A DNA stretch of 64,000 nucleotides. Source: Falsiroseomonas frigidaquae. GTDB taxonomy: Bacteria; Pseudomonadota; Alphaproteobacteria; Acetobacterales; Acetobacteraceae. How positions within the stretch are numbered: the stretch's first letter is position 1; the number at the start of each line of letters is the position of its first letter. The stretch spans positions 62,001-126,000 of the forward strand of contig NZ_JAAVTX010000004.1 in assembly GCF_012163145.1 (NCBI RefSeq). The letters are read 5' to 3'. This document shows, one piece after another, positions 21,990-36,294 of this stretch. Under the pieces are notes generated by a model. The model did no database searches. It was given only the letters and a program-made list of their open reading frames with translations, and was not told the origin of the DNA. The position numbers and the translations under genes were made by a program.

Positions 21990-22652
21990 TCAGTCCCGCC
22001 GTGCCGTGCCGAGCCCGACGCCCCGCACATCCGCCACCGCCTCCGCCAGCGACCGGTTCAGGCTCTCGATCCGCGTCACCACGCCGAGCCAGGGCTGCAC
22101 CGCCTCCAGCTCCGCCGCGGTGAAGATCAGCGGCAGCAGCCCGGCGGCGCGGGCCAGGCCGAGCAGCAGCGCGTCATGCGGCGCCGGGATCTCGCCTTCC
22201 AGCAGCAGGGCGCGCAGCCGGGCGCGGGCTTCCCTCACCTCCGGCCGGCCGGGCGCCTTGGGGTGGCGGCGGTCGGGCAGGATCCACAGCACCCGGTCCT
22301 CCACCCGCCGCAGGATGCCGCGCGCCACCAGCCGGTCCAGGATCGCCGCGCGGGCGGCCGGCGCTTCGCGCGCCAGCAGGGGAATGGCACCGCGCGCATC
22401 GCCCGGCGCGCCGGGGGCCGCCAGCCGCGCCAGCGCCGTATCCAGCGCGGCATCGCCGAGCGGCGTGGGATCGACCAGGATCAGCCGGTCCCGGTCCGTA
22501 TCCAGCCGCCCGGCCAGCGCCAGTTGCATCAGCAGTGCGCCGGCCAGCGCCCGGTCCGGTGCCATGCCGCCGCGGCCGACCGGGCGCCCTGTCTCGTCAT
22601 CCAGCGCGAGGAGGACGATCTCCTCCGCCAGCGTCAGCGCGCTGTCGCTCAT
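21990..22652 (-). CDS. GPP34/GOLPH3-family protein, second copy, coupled to a gamma-glutamyltransferase
   Basis: 220 residues, aligned over its whole length with the copy at 17916-18575: LAEEIVLLALDDETGRPV, LAGALLMQLALAGRLD, ILDRLVARGILRRVEDRVLW, PHDALLLGLARAAGLLPLIF. The ATG at 22652 shares ATGA with the stop of the gamma-glutamyltransferase gene, so translation of the two is probably coupled. That fixed pairing is the best clue to a shared role in envelope or glutathione-related processes, though this is inference. The middle region between conserved helices diverges strongly from the other copy. Confidence 0.86.
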   Translation of the reverse strand: MSDSALTLAEEIVLLALDDETGRPVGRGGMAPDRALAGALLMQLALAGRLDTDRDRLILVDPTPLGDAALDTALARLAAPGAPGDARGAIPLLAREAPAARAAILDRLVARGILRRVEDRVLWILPDRRHPKAPGRPEVREARARLRALLLEGEIPAPHDALLLGLARAAGLLPLIFTAAELEAVQPWLGVVTRIESLNRSLAEAVADVRGVGLGTARRD

Positions 22653-24226
22653 GTCTGGGCGAGGGCGGCGGACCAGGGGGACATCACATCGGTGATCCCC
22701 ACCCTTTCGCCGCCCGCGCGGATCTGGATCAGGTTCGGGCAGGCGAAATTCACCGGCAGCACGGCGTGCTCCACCACCTCCAGCGGGCCGGCGGCGGCCA
22801 GGCCGTCCAGCGTCGCCTGCGGCAGGCCGCGATCGGCTGTGGCGCCTTCGGGGCCGCTGACATCGATGCGCGGAAAATGCGCCGCCGCGTCGGGGTCCAT
22901 GCCGAAGCCGCTGACCAGGGACAGCATCTGGAACACCGCCGCCAGGATGCGCCGGCCGCCGGAAGCACCGAGCGCCATTTCCGGATTGCCCGCCGCATCG
23001 GCCACGATGACCGGGGACATATTGGTCAGCGGCCGCTTGTTCGGCCCGATCTCATTGGCGCTGCCCGGCCGCGGGTCGAACCACATGACGCCGTTGTTCA
23101 TCAGCACGCCCGAGCGCGGCAGCACGACGCGGGAGCCCATGGAGGACAGCAGCGTGGTGGTCATGGACACCATCATGCCATCCGCGTCGCAGACATTCAG
23201 ATGGGTGGTGCAGGTCTCCGCGCCCTTCGGCTCGGCATCGCCGAGGCCGGCCAGGCGCTCGGCATAGGCCGCCTGCATCGCCTTGGCGAAGGCCAGGTGC
23301 CAGGCGGTGCCCGGCGCGCTGCCATTCCAGTCCGCCGCCTCCATCAACTCCATCACGCGGCGGAAGGTCGGTGCCGCGGTCAGGCCGTTGGACAGGTGCA
23401 GGGTATGGCCGCGCCAGGGCACGGAAACCGCCGGCAGCACCCGCGCCTGGCAGCCGGCGAGGTCGGCGGCGGAGAGGATGCCGCCCGCCTCCTTCACATC
23501 GGCCGCGATCGCCGCGGCCACGTCGCCCTCGTAGAAGTCCCGGAAGCCGGCCTGCTGCAGCCGCTCCAGCGTGTCCGGCAGCCGGCCGAGGCGGAAGAAG
23601 CCCGGCTTGCCCTGGTAGGGGGTGACCGGCGGCAGGCCGTTCGGCAGGTAGATCCGCGCCGATTCGGCGTAGAGCTTCAGGGTGGAGGCCGCGTTGGCGA
23701 TCTTCAGCGTGGTGTACCAGTCCTGCGGCAGGCCGCGCTGCGCCAGCGCCACCGCCGGGGCCAGCACATCCTTCGCCGGCATCCGGCCACGGCGCTCATG
23801 CAGCAGCGCATAGCCGGCCACGGAGGACGGGGTGCAGAAGCTCATCGGCCCATGGATGTTGCGGTCGCCCTCCACCTCCGGCCAGGAGAACAGGTCCTGC
23901 TTCATCCGGCCGGTGGTCGGGAAATCCCGGGCGTTCAGGCCGGCCGGGGAGACGGGACCGAAGTCGAAGGTCTCGGCCGGGCCTCCGGGGGCTGCCACCT
24001 GGGCGTAGCCGATGCCGCCGAGGCCGCTGTTCCAGGGCTCCATCGCGGCGAGCGCGAAGGCCATGCCGACCGCCGCATCCGCCGCATTGCCGCCGGCTTC
24101 CAGGATGGCGATGCCGGCTTCCGCGGCGGCGCGGGACTGGCTGGCCACCATGCCGCGGCGGCCGCGGGCGGCGGGCTTGGTGACCTGCCAATGCTGGGTG
24201 GTATGGGCGGGCGGCTGGTACATCAT
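22649..24226 (-). CDS. Gamma-glutamyltransferase family protein (Ntn hydrolase)
   Basis: 525 residues, GGT fold, expected to self-cleave into two subunits and then transfer or hydrolyse gamma-glutamyl groups. The nucleophile Thr is the first of the TTHLNVCDADG pair near residue 335. GMVASQSRAAAEAGIAILEA, GGNAADAAVGMAFAL, GLGGIGYAQV, NNGVMWFDPRPG and NKRPLTNMSPVIV occur in family order. There is no signal peptide, so it is cytoplasmic and more like the YwrD/cephalosporin-acylase-like branch than periplasmic Ggt. The start codon lies just after a perfect hairpin that holds its SD (24231-24253). A FadR-type regulator gene lies upstream on the same strand. Confidence 0.88.
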   Translation of the reverse strand: MMYQPPAHTTQHWQVTKPAARGRRGMVASQSRAAAEAGIAILEAGGNAADAAVGMAFALAAMEPWNSGLGGIGYAQVAAPGGPAETFDFGPVSPAGLNARDFPTTGRMKQDLFSWPEVEGDRNIHGPMSFCTPSSVAGYALLHERRGRMPAKDVLAPAVALAQRGLPQDWYTTLKIANAASTLKLYAESARIYLPNGLPPVTPYQGKPGFFRLGRLPDTLERLQQAGFRDFYEGDVAAAIAADVKEAGGILSAADLAGCQARVLPAVSVPWRGHTLHLSNGLTAAPTFRRVMELMEAADWNGSAPGTAWHLAFAKAMQAAYAERLAGLGDAEPKGAETCTTHLNVCDADGMMVSMTTTLLSSMGSRVVLPRSGVLMNNGVMWFDPRPGSANEIGPNKRPLTNMSPVIVADAAGNPEMALGASGGRRILAAVFQMLSLVSGFGMDPDAAAHFPRIDVSGPEGATADRGLPQATLDGLAAAGPLEVVEHAVLPVNFACPNLIQIRAGGERVGITDVMSPWSAALAQT

Positions 24227-24230
24227 GCGG

Positions 24231-24253
24231 GATCCTCCGATGCGCGGAGGATC
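24231..24253 (-). promoter_or_regulatory. Perfect hairpin sequestering the ribosome binding site of the gamma-glutamyltransferase gene
   Basis: GATCCTCCG (24231-24239) pairs with CGGAGGATC (24245-24253) around a 5-nt loop. In the mRNA the 3' arm contains GGAGG, the SD of the gene starting at 24226, and the 5' arm supplies CCTCC. Folding would block translation. The same 23-bp dyad could instead be a DNA operator for the adjacent GntR regulator. Confidence 0.6.
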
Positions 24254-24386
24254 GACCCGCCCAGGGCGTTGGGCAACCCCGGCCCCGGCCAGGGCGATCC
24301 GTTCGGCCGGATCATGTCGGTGCATCCTGCTCCAGGCAGGCCGCCGAGAAGGCCCGTCCAGACAGGGCGGCTGGCGGAGCGAGCCT

Positions 24387-25136
24387 CTACGGGCGCTGCT
24401 TGGCCTGCCGCCGGCGTTCCACCGCCTGCTCGAAATCCAGGTCCTCATGCCAGCTCAGATGGCGGTCCAGCGCTGCCTGCGCGCCCTCCAGGTCGCCGCG
24501 TTCCAGCAGGTCCAGGATCTCGGTGTGTTCGGCGGAAATGCGCGGCTTCGGCCGCACATCGTGGCCCAACCCCCAGACCACCGAGAGCTGCCGCGCCACG
24601 CTCAGCCAGATGCCATGCAGCACGCCATTGCCGGAAAGCCGGCAGAGCTCGCCATGGAATGCCTCGTCGGCCGAGACGATGGCCGCGGTATCCGGCCCCT
24701 CCGCCACGGTGTTGTAGCGATCCGCGGCGCGCCGTGCCGGGGCCAGGCGCTCCGCCGTCGCGAGGCCCGAGGCCAGGATCTCCCGCAGCGCCAGCGCCTC
24801 CAGCGCCGTCCGCACCCGCATCAGTTCCGCCACCGCGCGGTTGGTCACCTGCATCAGCCGCATGCCCTTGTAGGGCGTGGAGACAACGATGCCCTGGCTT
24901 TCCAGCAGGCGCAGCGCCTCCCTCACCGGGACGCGGCTGATGCCGAGTTCGCGCGCGATCTCGGCCTCCACCAGCCGGTCGCCGGGCAGGAACACGCCGC
25001 GCGCGGCGGCGGCCACCACCGCCTCCGCGGCCTGTTCGACCATGGTGCGCGGATGCACCGGGGCCAGGCGTCGCGCCTCGCCGACGGTGTCCTCGGGTGC
25101 GGACGGCTCGGAAGCCTCGGCGGACATGGCATTCAC
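24387..25136 (-). CDS. GntR-family regulator, FadR/FCD subgroup
   Basis: 249 residues. The winged helix-turn-helix spans about 30-95: FLPGDRLVEAEIARELGISR then PVREALRLLESQGIV. The FCD ligand domain has RVRTALEALALREIL, the metal-binding Asp and His in SADEAFHGELCRLSGN, and EHTEILDLLERGDLEGA. Members sense small organic acids and usually control the adjacent catabolic or transport operon, here plausibly the gamma-glutamyltransferase/GPP34 genes. GTG 25136 is 9 nt after AAAGG; ATG 25127 is an alternative. The N-terminal 28 residues are Ala, Ser and Pro rich and probably disordered. Confidence 0.9.
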   Translation of the reverse strand: MNAMSAEASEPSAPEDTVGEARRLAPVHPRTMVEQAAEAVVAAAARGVFLPGDRLVEAEIARELGISRVPVREALRLLESQGIVVSTPYKGMRLMQVTNRAVAELMRVRTALEALALREILASGLATAERLAPARRAADRYNTVAEGPDTAAIVSADEAFHGELCRLSGNGVLHGIWLSVARQLSVVWGLGHDVRPKPRISAEHTEILDLLERGDLEGAQAALDRHLSWHEDLDFEQAVERRRQAKQRP

Positions 25137-29112: not shown

Positions 29113-30060
29113 GGTCAGTAGCGGCGGGGGTGACGCCCTCGAATTTTTGGTTCGACGAGCAAATTCAAGAAGGGATAGATCGCTTAGCTGGAAAAACTGG
29201 GCTCATCCACCAAGACGCCTTGCCATTCGAGGCCAATGCAGGCTCATTCAATTTCAGTGAAAATATGGCTGTCGCTGAAGCCAGCGGGCACAGTGGCGAG
29301 AATCTCTAAAATCGAAAGATGCAAGCTAGTAGGCTTTGTAGTCGTTAGTTTTCAAGCGCGATATAGAAAAGCCATGCCCAAGCCAGTCCGGCATAAGCGC
29401 ATCCTTGTCCGAGTTGTAGAGCGTCAAGAGGGCTTTGACGAAATATTCCGAAACCTCTACTTTCGAGAAATCTTTTGATACGCCCCTCGCAGCTGGTATC
29501 TTATAGTTTGAGGGGCCGCAAAGGTGACTCTGGCCAGAGTCCGCTATGCCTGTCCGGCACCAAATTGCAAAATGTTGGCAATTGTCTTGCAGAAGGTCGT
29601 AACTAGATCGACCGATATTAGATTCGGCTCGACGGACCGATTCCTTCAAACTAGGTATGGGCCGGCCCTCAACAGTTTCCGGCACGCCAATTACGTCGAA
29701 GCAAGGCGCTCCCAGCAGAAATTTATCGAGGCTTGTTTTCTAAATAATATTCTTCCCCGACATTTCAACATCATCATTAGTGTAGTGGACAATCTGGCCG
29801 GCTCCCACATATAGCCCGTAGTGCCAATAGAAGCGCCTAGATACGCGCAGAACAACGCCTGGATGTATTGACTTATTTGTTGCAGGTTCGGATGAGAATG
29901 ACTGGATAGCAGTAAACGCACCAGCAACGATGGAAACCAGGGGCCCGCTGAGTGTGGGCAAAATCGACCCCACGAAGATGCGCCACACCATGTCCTGTGC
30001 TCTCTGATGCTTCGAGGTCGGCCAATAGTTCGCTAAGGAGGGGTCGGCTCAACAGGCTGT
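29113..30060. other. AT-richer island between the HtrA-like gene and the LRAT and dehydrogenase remnants
   Basis: Base composition drops visibly here compared with both flanks, with runs of A and T and TAT/AAT codons rare elsewhere in the window. It holds one broken gene on the minus strand (29326-29991). On the plus strand a 59-codon frame from GTG 29130 to 29309 (MTPSNFWFDEQIQEGIDRL) has plausible composition but no SD or family and may be a remnant. No transposase, integrase or flanking repeat was seen. Recent transfer is likely; the mechanism is not visible. Confidence 0.55.
29326..29991 (-). pseudogene. LRAT-domain protein gene interrupted by one in-frame TAG
   Basis: Lecithin-retinol-acyltransferase (NlpC/P60-related) domain protein read on the minus strand. 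The first part, 29991-29740, has a hydrophobic N-terminus (VGSILPTLSGPLVSIVAGAF) and the H-box HPGVVLRVSRRFYWHYGLYV with IVHYTNDD. TAG at 29742-29740 follows. The same frame continues without another stop to 29326, with DKFLLGAPCFDVIGV, then ESVRRAESNIGRSSYDLL and the Cys motif DNCQHFAIWCRTG. All three catalytic residues (two His, one Cys) survive, on opposite sides of the stop. Full length would be about 220 residues. It is either a recently inactivated gene or one read through. Confidence 0.75.
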
Positions 30061-30350
30061 CAAAACCGGTTCGGCCAAAACGCCCGCCCCGCGCCCGCGC
30101 GCCCTGCGCTCCCTTCCGACCAGTCTCCCGCACACCGGCCCCAGCGTCCACCCGTTGAACGTCACCGCATGGTGCAACCCCTTCACCCGAGGGTCCGCCC
30201 AAGGATGGGGCCCGGCAACCTGCTCATTCAGCGCCGTCGAGCCTCGTGTCACCTGCAGCGCCGGCAGCACGCCGCGCCTCAGGTTGCCCTCGCCTCCCCT
30301 CCAGCAGGTTGCGCTGCCGTCCCGCAATATCCAGCACATTGCGTCCGCGA
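30060..30350 (-). pseudogene. Frameshifted remnant copy of the 3' end of the fused FAD dehydrogenase gene
   Basis: The minus-strand translation GLHHAVTFNGWTLGPVCGRL is nearly identical to residues in the last 50 of the intact dehydrogenase at 30714-33581 (GLHHAVTFNGWTLGPVAGRL). The upstream parts VLPAL and EGNL also match. Before that, the match (NVLDIAGRQRNLLEG against GVLDAAGRPRNLRES) continues in a different frame, so a frameshift lies near 30295. Only about 290 nt remain. It is in the same orientation as the intact gene and 360-650 nt from its end, suggesting a decayed tandem duplicate. Confidence 0.8.
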
Positions 30351-30713: not shown

Positions 30714-33581
30714 TCAGAACCGCCCCGGCGAGAAGGCCCGCCCCGCCCCCGCGCCGCCGCGAATCCCCTCCGCCACCAGCCGCCCGGCCACCGGCCCCAG
30801 CGTCCAGCCATTGAAGGTCACCGCGTGGTGCAGCCCTGGCACCCGCGCATCGGCGCCCAGGATCGGCCCCGGCACCTGCACGTTCAGCCCGGTCCAGGCA
30901 CGGATCAACTGCAGCCCGGCCAGCGCCGGCAGCACGGTGCCGGCGACGAACAGATTGCCCTCGATCGATTCCCGCAAATTGCGCGGCCGCCCCGCCGCAT
31001 CCAGCACGCCGGGCCAGGCGCCGCCGAGCACCAGGTGTCCGGCATCGCCCTGCTTGGCCGACAGGTGGCGGCTGCCATGCAGCACCAGGTGGCGCATGAT
31101 CTCGCCGCTCGCCGCCTCCGTCACCATCACCTGCTGCACCGCCGCCTGCACCGGAATCGGCGCGCCCAGCATTTTCCCGAGTTCCCCCGCCCAGGGCCCG
31201 CAGGCATTCACCAGCTGCCCGGCGCGGATCACGCCGCCCGCCGCCGTCTCCGCCCGGAAGCCCGCCCCCTCCCGCACCACCGCCGCGATGGTGGTGCCGC
31301 CGCGCACCGAAACGCCCGCCCGCCGCACCAGCGCATACAGCGCCGAAAGGCCGCGCAGCGGGTCCATCTGGCCTTCCGGCGCGCAAAAGGCGGCCCCCGC
31401 GAAGCCGGGGGCGAGGTAGGGCGCCACCGACATCAGCTCATTCGCGCCGAGCACCCGGCTGTCCACGCCGAAGCTGCGTTCCATCGCCACCTTGGCGACC
31501 AGGCGTTCCAGCTGTTCGGGCGTCTCCACCAGCATGATGCCGCCCTCAGTGCGGATGCCGAGGCCCTCGCCCGCCTCCGCCGCAATCTCCCGCCACAGCG
31601 CGACGGAGGCCGGGCCGATGGCCAGCACCTGCGCCGCCGCACTTTCGGGCCCCTCCTCCGCCCCCGCGCTGTCATAGGCATGGAGCTGGATGTGCAGGCT
31701 GCCGGCATTGCCCGTGGTGGCGCCCTGCCCCGGCTCGCCGCGTTCCGCCAGGATCACCGAAAGCCCCTCCCGCGCGCAGTACAGCGCGGTGGACAGGCCG
31801 AGCGCGCCGCCGCCGACCACCAACACGTCGCAGGCCTCGGCCGGGCCGGTGGCCGGTGCGCGATGCGCCGGCAGGATGGGGGCGGGCTGCACGGCAGGGC
31901 CTTCGAGCCATTCCGGCTTCTCCATGGCCAGCGCGATGGCCGGCACCGGCTTCAGCGGCGCGCGCGGCGCGGCCCAGCCAGCTTCCTCCGCGGCGCCGGC
32001 GATGCGCGCCACGGTGGCGCCGCACATGCGGCCCTGGCAGCGCCCCATGCCGGCGCGCGTCGCCTTCTTCACCGCGCCGAGCGAGGCCGCGCCATCGGCC
32101 ATGGCGGCGCGCAGGGTGCCGGCGGAGACTTCCTCGCAGCGGCAGACCAGCGTGCTGTCGGCCAGGCTGCGCGCATCGAATTCCGGCACGGCGAAGAAGC
32201 GCCACAGCGCGTCCTGGAAGCCGATGGCGCGCGCCAAAGCGCGGCGGCTGACGGCATCGTCCTCCAGGCCCGGCCGCAGATCCCGCGCCGCCGCCAGGCC
32301 AGCCAGGCGGCCGCGTGCGAAGGCGATGCGCGCGCCGCCCACCTGCGCGCCATCGCCCACGGCAAAGACGGTCGGCAGGCTGGTGCGGCCGTTGGAATCC
32401 GTCACCGTCTCCAACCGGCCGAGGCCGCTATCGATGAAGCGATGCGCGCAGCCCAGCGCGCGGGCCAGCCCGGTTTCCGGCTGGAAGCCGAGGTTCAGCG
32501 CCAGCGCATCGGCGGCGATGCGCGTCTCGCCCCGTGGCGTGGATGCGTGCAGCGCGACGAAGCGGGTCTCGCCCTCCGCCGCCACAGGCCGTGCGCCCCA
32601 AATCACCGGCACGCCGGCGCGCTTCAGCACGGCCAGGTAGCGCGCGCCGTCCCAGGCGAGGTCCGGCGCACCGGCCGCCAGCCGCAGCGCCTGGCGCATG
32701 CCGCGGAAACCCGGAAAGGGCGCAGCCTCCAGCACCGCGGCGACCTGCACGCCGCCCTCCACCAATTCGCAGGCGAGCTGCAGGTTCAGCGGGCCATTGC
32801 CGGCGATCACCACGCGATCCCCGGGCGAGACGCGGTTGGCGCGGGCGAGCGTCTGCAGGCAGCCGGTGGTCATCACCCCCGGCAGGGTCCATCCGGGAAT
32901 CGGCACCGGGCGTTCATGCGATCCGGCCGCGATCACCAGTCGCTGCGGGCGGAACACCAAGTTGCGGCCCTCGACCAGCGCCGCGATCTCATCCGCCGCG
33001 AAGCCGCCCCACACCGTGGCGCCGAAGCGGAACTGCACGCCGGCGGCGATGGCGCGGGCGCGCAGCTCGGCGCCCTGGCGGAACTGCCGGTCCGGCGCCG
33101 CATGTTCGTGGCTGGCGGCGAGCGGCTTCAGGTACTGGCCGCCCGGCGCATCGCGTTCATCCAGCGCGACCACGTGGCAACCGGCCTCCGCCGCGGCGAT
33201 CGCGGCCGAGAGCCCGGCCGGGCCAGCGCCCACCACGAGCAGGTCGCAAGCCACTTCCTCCGCCTGGGCGTGCGGCGGCGGCGCGAGGGGCGCGGGCTGT
33301 GCCGGCGCGGCGCGTTCCACCACCATGCCGGGCGTGACCTTCGCCAGGCAGGCGCGCTGATTCGCGCGGCCATCGATGGTGACGAGGCAATCGAAGCAGG
33401 CGCCCATGCCGCAATGCAGTCCGCGCGGCGCGCCGGATTGCGTATACCGCAGCGTCAATTCCCCCGCGGCCGACAGCGCCGCGGCCAGTGTTTCCCCGTA
33501 CAGCGCGGGAATCGGGCGCCCGTCGAAGGTGATGCCCACCGCTTCGGCAGAAGGGCGGATCGCGGCGTGGGTCAGGCGCAT
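30714..33581 (-). CDS. Three-in-one FAD/2Fe-2S amino-acid dehydrogenase (HcnABC or D-hydroxyproline dehydrogenase subunits fused)
   Basis: 955 residues made of parts normally encoded by three genes. Residues 1-90: 2Fe-2S domain with Cys57, Cys62, Cys65 and Cys78 (LHCGMGACFDCLV, QRACLA). About 110-460: FAD/NAD oxidoreductase with VVGAGPAGLSAA, PGGQYLKP, GDRVVIAGNGPLN and FAVGDGAQVGG. About 475-530: BFD-like 2Fe-2S region (LVCRCEEV, CQGRMC). About 585-950: DAO-type FAD domain (VLVVGGGALGLSTALY, NACGPWAGELG, ending HHAVTFNGWTLGP). Such complexes oxidise glycine to cyanide (HcnABC), opines, or D-hydroxyproline. The divergent DHDPS-family lyase favours hydroxyproline. ATG 33581 is chosen by homology; the SD is poor. 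Confidence 0.88.
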   Translation of the reverse strand: MRLTHAAIRPSAEAVGITFDGRPIPALYGETLAAALSAAGELTLRYTQSGAPRGLHCGMGACFDCLVTIDGRANQRACLAKVTPGMVVERAAPAQPAPLAPPPHAQAEEVACDLLVVGAGPAGLSAAIAAAEAGCHVVALDERDAPGGQYLKPLAASHEHAAPDRQFRQGAELRARAIAAGVQFRFGATVWGGFAADEIAALVEGRNLVFRPQRLVIAAGSHERPVPIPGWTLPGVMTTGCLQTLARANRVSPGDRVVIAGNGPLNLQLACELVEGGVQVAAVLEAAPFPGFRGMRQALRLAAGAPDLAWDGARYLAVLKRAGVPVIWGARPVAAEGETRFVALHASTPRGETRIAADALALNLGFQPETGLARALGCAHRFIDSGLGRLETVTDSNGRTSLPTVFAVGDGAQVGGARIAFARGRLAGLAAARDLRPGLEDDAVSRRALARAIGFQDALWRFFAVPEFDARSLADSTLVCRCEEVSAGTLRAAMADGAASLGAVKKATRAGMGRCQGRMCGATVARIAGAAEEAGWAAPRAPLKPVPAIALAMEKPEWLEGPAVQPAPILPAHRAPATGPAEACDVLVVGGGALGLSTALYCAREGLSVILAERGEPGQGATTGNAGSLHIQLHAYDSAGAEEGPESAAAQVLAIGPASVALWREIAAEAGEGLGIRTEGGIMLVETPEQLERLVAKVAMERSFGVDSRVLGANELMSVAPYLAPGFAGAAFCAPEGQMDPLRGLSALYALVRRAGVSVRGGTTIAAVVREGAGFRAETAAGGVIRAGQLVNACGPWAGELGKMLGAPIPVQAAVQQVMVTEAASGEIMRHLVLHGSRHLSAKQGDAGHLVLGGAWPGVLDAAGRPRNLRESIEGNLFVAGTVLPALAGLQLIRAWTGLNVQVPGPILGADARVPGLHHAVTFNGWTLGPVAGRLVAEGIRGGAGAGRAFSPGRF

Positions 33582-33649
33582 GGGATGGGCTTGATGCTTT
33601 CGCGGAAAGGCGCATGGATGATGGCCTTTCGTGCAGTCGGAGCAAGCCA

Positions 33650-34576
33650 ATGGGTCACCAAAAAGAGCGGGGCAAGAAATTTCGCGGCTGCTACACAGTA
33701 CTGATCACGCCCTTCACCGAGGGCGGTGAGGCAGTGGATCTGAAGGCGCTGGAGCGCCTGGTGGAATTTCAGATCCGCGAAGGTATACGCGGCCTGATTC
33801 CGCTCGGCTCCACCGGCGAGTTCCTGTCGGTCTCGCCGGAGGAACGCACGGCGATCGTCGAGACGGTGGTGAAGACCGCCGCCGGCCGCGTGCCCGTGCT
33901 GATCGGCACCGGAGCCGAGGATACGCGGGAGGTGGTGCGCACGTCGAAGGAGGCGGAAGCGCTGGGCGCCGATGGCGTGATGATCATCCCGCCCTTTTAT
34001 TCGGTGCCGACCGAGGACGAGCTGTACGTCCACTACAAGAAGGTCGCGGACGCCATCGGCATCCCGATCATGGTCTACAACAACCCTGCGACGGCGAATG
34101 TGGATCTGACGCCGAAGATCCTCGCGCGTCTCGCCACCATCGAGAGCTGCCTCTACGTGAAGGAGAGCACGCTGGAGGTGACGCGCGTGCGCGACATCGT
34201 CGATCTCTGCGGCGACCGCATGGAAGTCTTCGCCGGCGTGCTCGGCTATGAGAGCGCCTGGCTGGGGGCGATCGGCTGGGTCGCGGTGTGTTCCAACCTG
34301 GCGCCGAAGCTGTCCACCGAGATGTTCCACGCGGCGGCCTTCGACAAGGACATGGACAAGGCCTTGCCGTTGTATCGCAAGCTGATGCCGCTGCTGCCCT
34401 TCGTCGGCGGGCCGCGCTACGTCTCCGGCACCAAGGCGGGCTTCCGGCTGATGGGCATGCCGATGGGCGATCCGCGTCCGCCGCGGCTGCCGCTGCCCGG
34501 CGCCGACACGGCGCAGCTCAGCGCCGTGCTGCAAGGCATGGGCCTGCTGTCCGAGGGTGCGCGGCAGGCCGCCTGA
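33650..34576 (+). CDS. DHDPS-family lyase/deaminase (N-acetylneuraminate lyase superfamily)
   Basis: 308-residue class I aldolase-type TIM barrel. Seen: TPFTEGGEAVD, GSTGEFLSVSPEER (the GSTGE substrate loop), IPIMVYNNPATANVD with the catalytic Tyr, and the Schiff-base Lys in CLYVKESTLEV. The family includes dihydrodipicolinate synthase, sugar-acid lyases, and the pyrroline-4-hydroxy-2-carboxylate deaminase of hydroxyproline breakdown. Its position next to an amino-acid dehydrogenase and an amino-acid ABC receptor favours the last. ATG 33650 follows GGAG with 7-nt spacing, 68 nt from the divergent dehydrogenase start. Confidence 0.88.
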   Translation: MGHQKERGKKFRGCYTVLITPFTEGGEAVDLKALERLVEFQIREGIRGLIPLGSTGEFLSVSPEERTAIVETVVKTAAGRVPVLIGTGAEDTREVVRTSKEAEALGADGVMIIPPFYSVPTEDELYVHYKKVADAIGIPIMVYNNPATANVDLTPKILARLATIESCLYVKESTLEVTRVRDIVDLCGDRMEVFAGVLGYESAWLGAIGWVAVCSNLAPKLSTEMFHAAAFDKDMDKALPLYRKLMPLLPFVGGPRYVSGTKAGFRLMGMPMGDPRPPRLPLPGADTAQLSAVLQGMGLLSEGARQAA

Positions 34577-34610
34577 CTTCTTCTTCGAACCAAACAGGGA
34601 GTTTCAAACC

Positions 34611-35450
34611 ATGCGTCGTCTTCTGCTCGCCGCCGCGCTCGCGGCCTTCGCCTCGCCTGCCTTTGCCCCCGTCGCTTCGGCCCAGGCGCCCGCCGGCTGC
34701 ACGCCGCGCGTCGCCAATTCCGAGCTGGTGAAGCCCGGCACGCTGATCATGTCGATCAACCCGACCCTGCCGCCGCTGCAATTCGTCAATGCGCAGGGCC
34801 AGCTGCAGGGGCTGCGCGTCGATCTCGGCGTGGAGATCGCGCGGCGGCTTTGCCTGACGCCGGAATGGGTTCGGATCGAGTTCAGCGCGATGATTCCGGG
34901 CCTCGCGGCGCGGCGCTGGGACGTGATCAACAGCGGCACCTTCTTCACCCCGGCGCGCGCCGAGATCATGCAGATGCTGCGCTACGAGAATGCGGCCGTC
35001 GCCTTCTCCGCCGCGCGCGGCAACCCGCTGAACATCTCCAGTGTCGATGACCTGGCCGGCAAGACCGTGGGTGTCGAGCTCGGCGGCTTCGAGGAATCCC
35101 GCACCCGCGCGCTGAGCGCGGATCTGGTCGCACGCGGCAAGGCTGCCATCACCATCCGCACCTTCGACAACTTCGCCATCGCCTTCCAGGCGCTGCGCGC
35201 CGGCCAGGTGCAGGCGGTGACGAGCGTGGATGCAGTGGCCGCCGAATACGACCAGCGCGGCGATTTTCCGCGTGTTCTGCATGGCCTGTTCCCTACCCCC
35301 GCGAGCCTTGCCATGCGGTCGCGTCCGCTGGCGCAGGAAATCGCCAAGGTGCTGACCGAGATGAAGGCGGATGGCAGCTACGACCGCCTGTTCGACCGCT
35401 ACGGCGTGTCGAAGTACGAGGCGGGCTTCGAGGTCGTCGGCCCGCAATAA
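34611..35450 (+). CDS. Amino-acid ABC transporter substrate-binding protein (family 3)
   Basis: 279 residues with a Sec signal (MRRLLLAAALAAFASPAFA, cleavage after ASAQ). Mature blocks: GTLIMSINPTLPPLQFVNAQ, GLRVDLGVEIARRLCL, DVINSGTFFTPAR, DLAGKTVGVELGGFEES and DGSYDRLFDRYGVSKYEAG, the order of polar amino-acid receptors. Start ATG 34611 follows AGGGAG. It begins 34 nt after the lyase stop. A strong hairpin separates it from the permease gene, which usually raises receptor over permease expression. The ligand could be hydroxyproline by context; this is inference. Confidence 0.9.
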   Translation: MRRLLLAAALAAFASPAFAPVASAQAPAGCTPRVANSELVKPGTLIMSINPTLPPLQFVNAQGQLQGLRVDLGVEIARRLCLTPEWVRIEFSAMIPGLAARRWDVINSGTFFTPARAEIMQMLRYENAAVAFSAARGNPLNISSVDDLAGKTVGVELGGFEESRTRALSADLVARGKAAITIRTFDNFAIAFQALRAGQVQAVTSVDAVAAEYDQRGDFPRVLHGLFPTPASLAMRSRPLAQEIAKVLTEMKADGSYDRLFDRYGVSKYEAGFEVVGPQ

Positions 35451-35604: not shown

Positions 35605-36294
35605 ATGCATATCTGGTCCTGGCAGGGCTTCTTCGACTACCTGTTCAATCCCTTCCTGCTGGAAGGCGCGCTCACCACGCTGTGGCTGACCGCGGCCTCC
35701 CTCGTCTGCGGGCTCGCGCTCGGCATCGTCGTGGCGCTGCTGCGGCTGTCCGGCAACAAGTGGCTGGCGGCGCTGGCCAGCTTCTATTGCTGGATCTTCC
35801 GCGGCACGCCGCTGCTGGTGCAGTTGCTCATCATCTATACCGGCCTGCCGCTGTTCGGCGTGCGCTTCAGCGTGACGCAGGCTGCCCTCCTCGGCCTGGC
35901 GCTGAACGAGGCCGCCTATCTCAGCGAGATCGTGCGCTCCGGCATCTCCGCCGTCGGCCCGGGGCAGCGGGAGGCGGGGCTGGCGCTGGGGCTGAAGAAG
36001 ATCCAGGTCTTCCGCACCATCACCTGGCCGCAGGCGTTCCGCATCATCATTCCGCCGCTGGGCAATTCGGTGAACGGCTTGCTGAAGACCACCTCGGTGG
36101 CCAGCGTGATCTCCATGGAGGAATTGCTGCGGCGCACGCAGATCCTGATCCAGGAGAAGTTCCTGGTGCTGGAATTATTCCTCGCCGCGGCGTTCTGGTA
36201 CCTGGTGATGACCACGGTGTGGGACCTGGTGCAGCGCCAGCTGGAGAAGCGCTACGGCCGCGCCTACGTCACCACCGCGGCGGACCGGCGCTGA
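35605..36294 (+). CDS. Amino-acid ABC transporter permease (HisM/GlnP type)
   Basis: 229-residue inner-membrane permease with about five hydrophobic helices (LLEGALTTLWLTAASLVCGL, LLVQLLIIYTGLPLFGV, LFLAAAFWYLVMTTVW among them). The coupling EAA-type loop reads REAGLALGLKKIQVF. It would carry the substrate delivered by the receptor encoded 154 nt upstream. A single permease suggests a homodimer. No ATPase gene of this family follows; the next gene is a convergent NUDIX hydrolase 3 nt away. The ATPase must be encoded elsewhere or shared. Confidence 0.92.
   Translation: MHIWSWQGFFDYLFNPFLLEGALTTLWLTAASLVCGLALGIVVALLRLSGNKWLAALASFYCWIFRGTPLLVQLLIIYTGLPLFGVRFSVTQAALLGLALNEAAYLSEIVRSGISAVGPGQREAGLALGLKKIQVFRTITWPQAFRIIIPPLGNSVNGLLKTTSVASVISMEELLRRTQILIQEKFLVLELFLAAAFWYLVMTTVWDLVQRQLEKRYGRAYVTTAADRR

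Follow-up and report, generated by a model that had tools for sequence, protein, structure and literature searches.

The window analysed here, a stretch of 64,000 nucleotides from contig NZ_JAAVTX010000004.1 of Falsiroseomonas frigidaquae, encodes on its minus strand a flavin/iron-sulphur dehydrogenase in which the gamma, alpha and beta subunit types of heteromeric enzymes are joined in one chain of 955 residues. The fusion is conserved across genera and is not peculiar to one genome, and its gene forms a conserved module together with those of a DapA-family lyase and a polar amino-acid ABC transporter. By analogy with characterised relatives, the protein is probably a single-chain member of the opine/D-hydroxyproline/L-proline dehydrogenase superfamily, which would oxidise an N-substituted or cyclic amino acid and deliver the electrons to the respiratory chain.

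The gene is a single open frame running from an ATG at 33581 to a stop at 30714; the plus strand of this interval is not the gene. An earlier note on this DNA, which left the strand unstated, had proposed that three subunit types were fused in one 955-residue chain, with a Cys57/62/65/78 2Fe-2S domain, a BFD-like cysteine cluster and a DAO-type FAD domain in this order. The open frame and the Pfam matches bear out the fusion and the order of its parts, and the four cysteines lie where the note placed them (Table 1). The four Pfam matches of Table 1 all score above the curated cut-offs; a further match is to SO_alpha_A3.

An AlphaFold model of the whole chain gives one confident fold (pLDDT 86, pTM 0.89). 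Its alpha and beta halves match the alpha and beta chains of the heteromeric archaeal proline dehydrogenase (1y56) and sarcosine oxidase, and the beta fold additionally matches glycine oxidase; the matches of the alpha part rest on Foldseek, and the VIA rows cover mainly residues 579-955. These folds, together with the SO_alpha_A3 match, might also suit an oxidase like heterotetrameric sarcosine oxidase or glycine oxidase, with O2 as the acceptor and H2O2 as a product. The alpha chain of sarcosine oxidase has an extra folate-binding part, and no folate-binding domain is found among the Pfam matches of our chain. We consider an oxidase role very unlikely, given also that the purified opine relative is a dehydrogenase and not an oxidase (PMC4575208). 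The candidate assignment to the sarcosine oxidase family was rejected, since the scores of 133.5 bits for soxA (TIGR01372) and 59.8 bits for soxB lie far below the respective cut-offs of 1164 and 529.45.

Among the fetched loci, we found 82 distinct full-length proteins (the window's included) with the same architecture and no internal stop. Their hosts are Acetobacteraceae, other Alphaproteobacteria and Betaproteobacteria, and their pairwise identities span 0.37-0.98, with a median of 0.51. The same domain order in a continuous frame, which had been named beforehand as the property to look for in relatives, recurs in dozens of related species, and a sequencing error or frame artefact was rejected as the source of the fusion because 82 distinct proteins have the same uninterrupted frame. 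The eight cluster cysteines are invariant in all 82, and R894 and W896 stand in columns that are at least 99% conserved.

The frequency of the one-chain form was assessed at several taxonomic depths. Across the order, 81 of 396 genomes (own genome included) have a full-length, stop-free copy; 95 match at 1e-100, 14 of them with partial rows, and in 11 of these 14 a piece starts at most 8 bases from a contig end. Among 60 related genomes, own genome included, the full-length single frame occurs in 18, where full-length means a row from residue 1-11 to at least 940 without an internal stop (the totals of both searches were tallied by hand). Within the genus it occurs in 12 of 16 genomes; G002, G005 and G015 have pieces at contig ends, and G012 is without the gene. 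Of 385 genomes drawn evenly from the class, 34 match at 1e-60, but only the rows of G000, G163 and G330 extend over the whole length in one frame (the row of G330 has one TGA, which frame reading places past the matched part). Five of 398 phylum genomes match at 1e-80, and of these G000, G1123, G1136 and G823 are full-length. On plasmids, at least 80% of the query is covered in one place by 14 of the 80 records matching at 1e-40, from Azospirillum, Variovorax, Aureimonas, Rhizobium and Agrobacterium vitis, and by 18 of the 387 matching at 1e-20. In the four opened plasmid records with gene tables, the fused protein is one gene, annotated as 'FAD-dependent oxidoreductase'; two other records carry no gene table at this place.

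Table 1. Features of the fused gene and its neighbours, in coordinates of the window.
Feature	Coordinates	Strand	Residues	Evidence and remarks
Fused gamma-alpha-beta flavin/iron-sulphur dehydrogenase, 955 aa	30714..33581	minus		ORF, Pfam, conserved residues
Gamma-type Fer2_4 [2Fe-2S] domain	33309..33545	minus	13-91	Pfam (E 7e-24); invariant Cys57/62/65/78
Alpha-type FAD domain (Pyr_redox_2)	32337..33245	minus	113-415	Pfam (E 5e-34); GxGxxG at 118
BFD-type cluster domain (Fer2_BFD)	32001..32150	minus	478-527	Pfam (E 1e-10); invariant Cys480/482/515/520
Alpha-beta linker, least conserved stretch	31830..32000	minus	528-584	Alignment of 82 proteins
Beta-type DAO FAD domain	30768..31829	minus	585-938	Pfam (E 8e-54), fold matches; GxGxxG at 590
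Putative FMN-site motif of beta subunits, R894-x-W896 (R894-A-W896)	30894..30902	minus	894-896	Motif from PMC4575208
DapA-family (DHDPS) lyase, divergent from the fused gene	33650..34576	plus		Start assumed; in-frame ATG also at 33614
Polar amino-acid ABC transporter substrate-binding protein (SBP_bac_3)	34605..35450	plus		Start codon assumed
Polar amino-acid ABC transporter permease	35605..36294	plus
Gamma-glutamyltransferase-family hydrolase	22649..24448	minus		Link to module uncertain

The linker between the alpha and beta parts has a mean top-residue frequency of 0.50 over residues 530-582, against 0.60 to 0.72 in the other stretches of the 82 proteins. Such variability could reflect post-translational processing into gamma-alpha and beta subunits, in which case the fusion would fix only their expression. 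We regard this as highly improbable: A538, P539, R540, P542 and P545 are invariant in 34 sequences and P542 and P545 are at least 99% conserved in the 82, although no cleavage-site search was made. The fixed stoichiometry and the electron channelling that the earlier note suggested for the fusion are plausible.

The chain has the sequence marks of the heteromeric FAD/FMN/Fe-S superfamily of opine dehydrogenase (OpnDH), D-hydroxyproline dehydrogenase (D-HypDH) and PDH1. Its gamma cysteines follow the motif C-x4-C-x2-C-x11-12-C, its alpha part combines a GxGxxG with a CxCx32Cx4C cluster (CxCx33Cx4C in NoxA), and its beta part combines the DAO domain with R-A-W where OoxB has R-S-W and NoxB has R-Q-W. 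A legend in PMC4575208 gives x15-20 as the middle spacing of the alpha cluster, which fits neither the fused chain nor NoxA. The members of the superfamily have separate alpha, beta (and gamma) chains, whereas here all parts lie in one frame. The characterised opine dehydrogenase contains two FAD, one FMN and one [2Fe-2S] per alpha-beta-gamma unit, with the FMN between alpha and beta, and the R-x-W of beta subunits is its proposed binding motif (PMC4575208). The two FADs and two iron-sulphur motifs initially listed for the chain hold, but the FMN had been overlooked. Because opine dehydrogenase has FMN and the R-x-W is kept here, up to five redox centres are to be expected in the chain by analogy.

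The closest named enzymes by architecture are the opine dehydrogenases, which share the R-x-W. The identities of the fused parts to Oox and Nox are 46% and 39% for gamma, 33% and 32% for alpha, and 23% (OoxB) and 26% (NoxB) for beta, and a split gamma-alpha relative is found on a Ti plasmid. That the fused protein is itself an octopine- or nopaline-like opine dehydrogenase nevertheless seems unlikely, since it is the catalytic beta part that is least similar and related beta subunits vary in substrate (PMC4575208). Furthermore, the octopine and nopaline stretches examined (about 9.6 kb each) are annotated with ornithine cyclodeaminase and with no DapA- or hydantoinase-type partner, although a pair of the N-methylhydantoinase type (hyuA, hyuB) does adjoin the nopaline genes.

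The genetic neighbourhood of the fused gene is conserved. In the window, 68 bases separate its start from the DapA-family gene, if the latter begins at 33650. Of the 52 loci whose flanks are long enough, 39 have a DapA-family gene of at least 45% identity, 39 the permease and 38 the binding protein. A dihydropyrimidinase-type hydrolase occurs in 24 of them and a GntR regulator in 22, followed by an ATPase (21), a PTE-family hydrolase (8), a DUF3830 gene (6) and a gamma-glutamyltransferase-family gene (5). These counts come from heuristic script calls with identity thresholds that differ by gene, and the loci are partly non-independent (e.g., L029-L031, L053-L055). The transporter, the DapA-family gene, HydA, DUF3830 and GntR are annotated as operons on plasmids of Azospirillum, Aureimonas and Agrobacterium vitis. 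M20-family genes occur near the fused gene in L058 and L123, with kin in other loci by BLAST clustering, and a relative (about 59-60%) of the window's gamma-glutamyltransferase-family gene occurs on the downstream side of the fused gene in four loci (L045, L046, L048, L049). Across the 60 related genomes, the DapA gene is found at 1e-80 in 19, all of which also have the fused gene or pieces of it except G026; conversely, G017, G019, G027, G029 and G035 have the fused gene or pieces and no DapA gene at this threshold. The DUF3830 gene adjoins the dihydropyrimidinase in fused-enzyme operons (L111 6561-6977 and relatives); the word DUF3830 does not occur in the open-access PubMed Central (PMC) literature searched.

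The window's DapA-family protein is unlikely, to judge from its residues, to be a dihydrodipicolinate synthase, because the loop that reads PGRTG in the Acinetobacter synthase reads PATAN here. In DapA itself, an arginine of this loop binds the second substrate. Across 59 DapA proteins, conservation extends to GSTGE, the lysine of KEST and the YNNPAT loop; the window's copy keeps GSTGE and the VKEST lysine. Among HydA proteins, the histidines, lysine and aspartate that would bind the metals look intact in the 26 compared.

The enzyme domains and the neighbouring genes (DapA family, amino-acid transporter and often GntR) also resemble the classical hydroxyproline route, which runs through an epimerase, a D-hydroxyproline dehydrogenase and a DapA-family Pyr4H2C deaminase. 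In Streptomyces, SCO6289-6294 encodes the three dehydrogenase subunits along with an epimerase, a GntR regulator and a deaminase of the DapA family (PMC6608401), and five genomes outside the genus (G017, G019, G029, G033 and G035) have a racemase-family gene together with the fused gene or pieces of it. It is quite unlikely, however, that the fused protein is the D-hydroxyproline dehydrogenase of this route, because PF05544 (proline racemase/epimerase) finds no match in the own genome (a 97.9% complete draft) or elsewhere among the 16 genomes searched from the genus, although the fused gene is present, whole or in pieces, in 15 of these. The family occurs in 13 of the 60 related genomes, in 11 of them over the cut-off. 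No epimerase-family gene is found among the neighbour proteins scanned, which are a sample, and the PATAN loop differs from the PPRTA and PVSYG loops of DapA proteins near epimerases, where only two of the eight loci read have a DapA match. In one locus (L168, in G029), a proline-racemase gene is surrounded by a DapA gene and by alpha, beta and gamma genes that are separate; this is likely an ordinary hydroxyproline locus.

Our preferred reading, a respiratory (dye-linked) dehydrogenase whose product would be lysed by the DapA-family enzyme, follows by analogy from opine dehydrogenase and the D-hydroxyproline module. Where a dihydropyrimidinase-type, PTE-type or M20 hydrolase is present, it would first open or trim a cyclic or acylated substrate. 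The DAO domain would oxidise an N-substituted or cyclic amino acid at a C-N bond, with an imine or keto acid as the product, and the electrons would pass from the beta FAD to the FMN at the alpha-beta contact, then to the iron-sulphur clusters and finally to quinone as a respiratory acceptor, and not to O2. The keto or imino product would then be cleaved or deaminated through Schiff-base chemistry of the DapA-family enzyme. The frequent presence of a hydantoinase- or PTE-type hydrolase suggests that the precursor is a cyclic amide or acylated compound. We offer only tentatively, as less likely than not, the broader idea that proteobacteria of soil, water and the rhizosphere have an unrecognised catabolic route built around this widespread single-chain enzyme with five centres. 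In it, a cyclic amide or N-acyl amino acid would be imported, its ring opened by a hydrolase of the dihydropyrimidinase or PTE type, and the product oxidised by the fused enzyme and cleaved by a new DapA-family lyase.

The origin of the fusion can be approached through its nearest unfused kin, in which gamma is already joined to alpha and beta is the next gene (L118, L143, L144) or the preceding one (L117). In contrast to the fused form, these two-gene relatives (with L132) have a separate beta gene that overlaps or adjoins the gamma-alpha gene, and the overlap in L118 and L143 is in different frames. Their alpha part is 43-45% identical to the fused form (L117, L118, L143 and L132). A distant paralogue from the window's genus (L132, around 10282; 40%) has gamma-alpha and beta in frame, split by one TGA, and the residues preceding this TGA resemble the linker of the fused form. 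Because these two genes share a frame with a single TGA between them, loss of a stop codon is the simplest route to the fusion, and the fusion most likely arose in this way between adjacent gamma-alpha and beta genes. On the marine roseobacter plasmids of L143 (5878-7014) and L144 (3968-5086) there is also a lone DAO-type beta, which scores higher against the HMM (375 and 330 bits) than the beta adjoining gamma-alpha (304 and 269 bits), in a region with DapA genes and glycine dehydrogenase subunits; this is possibly a case of subunit exchange. L136 (5097-6263) likewise has a lone DAO-family gene, at a distance of two genes from its outlying fused enzyme and the neighbouring DapA gene.

We built quick trees of the alpha and beta parts, with SH-aLRT support only. 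In the alpha tree, 47 non-redundant fused rows and nine gamma-alpha rows (including L071, which ends early) form one group with a support of 100, apart from OoxA, NoxA and the other alpha subunits, among them the window genome's own paralogues L002-L006. It contains fused clades of 34 rows (95) and 11 rows (95). The beta tree recovers the 34 rows (99) and ten of these 11 (99). In either tree, a minimum of two changes between the fused and the split state is required, so that one origin with later splitting and two fusions both fit.

Several observations weigh against the picture drawn so far. The fork of the alpha tree that joins both fused clades, L068, L136 and the split forms is unresolved, and the beta tree joins 45 of the 47 fused rows (85) with L136 among the split forms (82) and L068 unplaced. 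The trees thus leave a single origin of the fusion undemonstrated; the one-chain claim does not need one origin. Thirteen of the 52 loci are without a DapA gene of at least 45% identity. A more distant DapA-family gene lies nearby in L131 (a wider stretch around L068) and L136, the loci of the two outlying fused proteins; in L045, L048 and L049 a paralogue of the 26% type is found further away, and no DapA-family gene was recognised in the flanks of the other eight. HydA is absent beside the window's gene, its nearest homologue (59%) being on another contig. As for the redox centres, only one [2Fe-2S] per unit was counted in the opine dehydrogenase although both cluster motifs are present (PMC4575208).

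Remnants of genes lie near the fused gene. The minus strand at 30013-30337 holds a decayed second copy of its 3' end (about the last 100 codons and downstream bases), with 72% DNA identity to the fused gene over 345 bases and 80% over 245 bases to the copy of F. selenitidurans (L028). In L026 there is no decayed copy between the fused gene and HtrA, and only about 16 bases separate the two frames. At 29326-29685, also on the minus strand, a frame of 119 aa matches the LRAT profile PF04970 (E 3e-9) at its end, over positions 85-118 of 120, and is apparently a fragment.

Membrane-associated opine enzymes of this kind long resisted purification (PMC4575208), and a natural single chain of fixed 1:1:1 composition would be a convenient object for work on structure and electron transfer. 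The gene also exemplifies the fusion of separate genes into domains, with a two-gene relative that shares one frame in the same genus, and its conserved neighbours point to a catabolic pathway for an amino-acid-like compound. We found no paper on a gamma-alpha-beta fusion in the open-access PMC literature searched.

The comparison with known systems shows what is shared and what is new. The opine dehydrogenases (OdhABC, Oox, Nox) share with the fused chain the three domain types, both cluster motifs and the R-x-W, but opine oxidase (OoxB-gamma-OoxA) and D-nopaline dehydrogenase (NoxB-gamma-NoxA) are encoded by three genes in the order beta-gamma-alpha, whereas the single chain runs gamma-alpha-beta. 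As in the fused-gene module, an amino-acid-type ABC transporter adjoins the dehydrogenase genes of the octopine operon. D-hydroxyproline dehydrogenase (LhpBEF; SCO6289-6291) has the three domain types, a DapA-family partner and a GntR-type regulator in common with the module and differs in its epimerase partner and its separate subunits (PMC6608401 for Streptomyces). The earlier note was thus right that the subunits of the opine and hydroxyproline enzymes are separate; for HcnABC, which it also cited, no model of that name appears among the NCBIfam matches of the three chain parts at 1e-10, and no direct sequence comparison was made. In heterotetrameric sarcosine oxidase (1vrq, 2gag), the alpha chain aligns with residues 12 to about 570, which takes in both the gamma and the alpha part, and the beta chain with the DAO part, which is joined here and separate there. 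Archaeal L-proline dehydrogenase PDH1 (1y56), which is not known to have a lyase partner, has a gamma-like N-terminus joined to alpha as in the fused chain, and its beta is a separate chain. This gamma-alpha fusion was already on record (PMC4575208) and had been missed when the single chain was set against separate subunits. Sequence databases already list the gamma-alpha-beta chain under a generic name, and the new part is the joining of gamma-alpha to beta.

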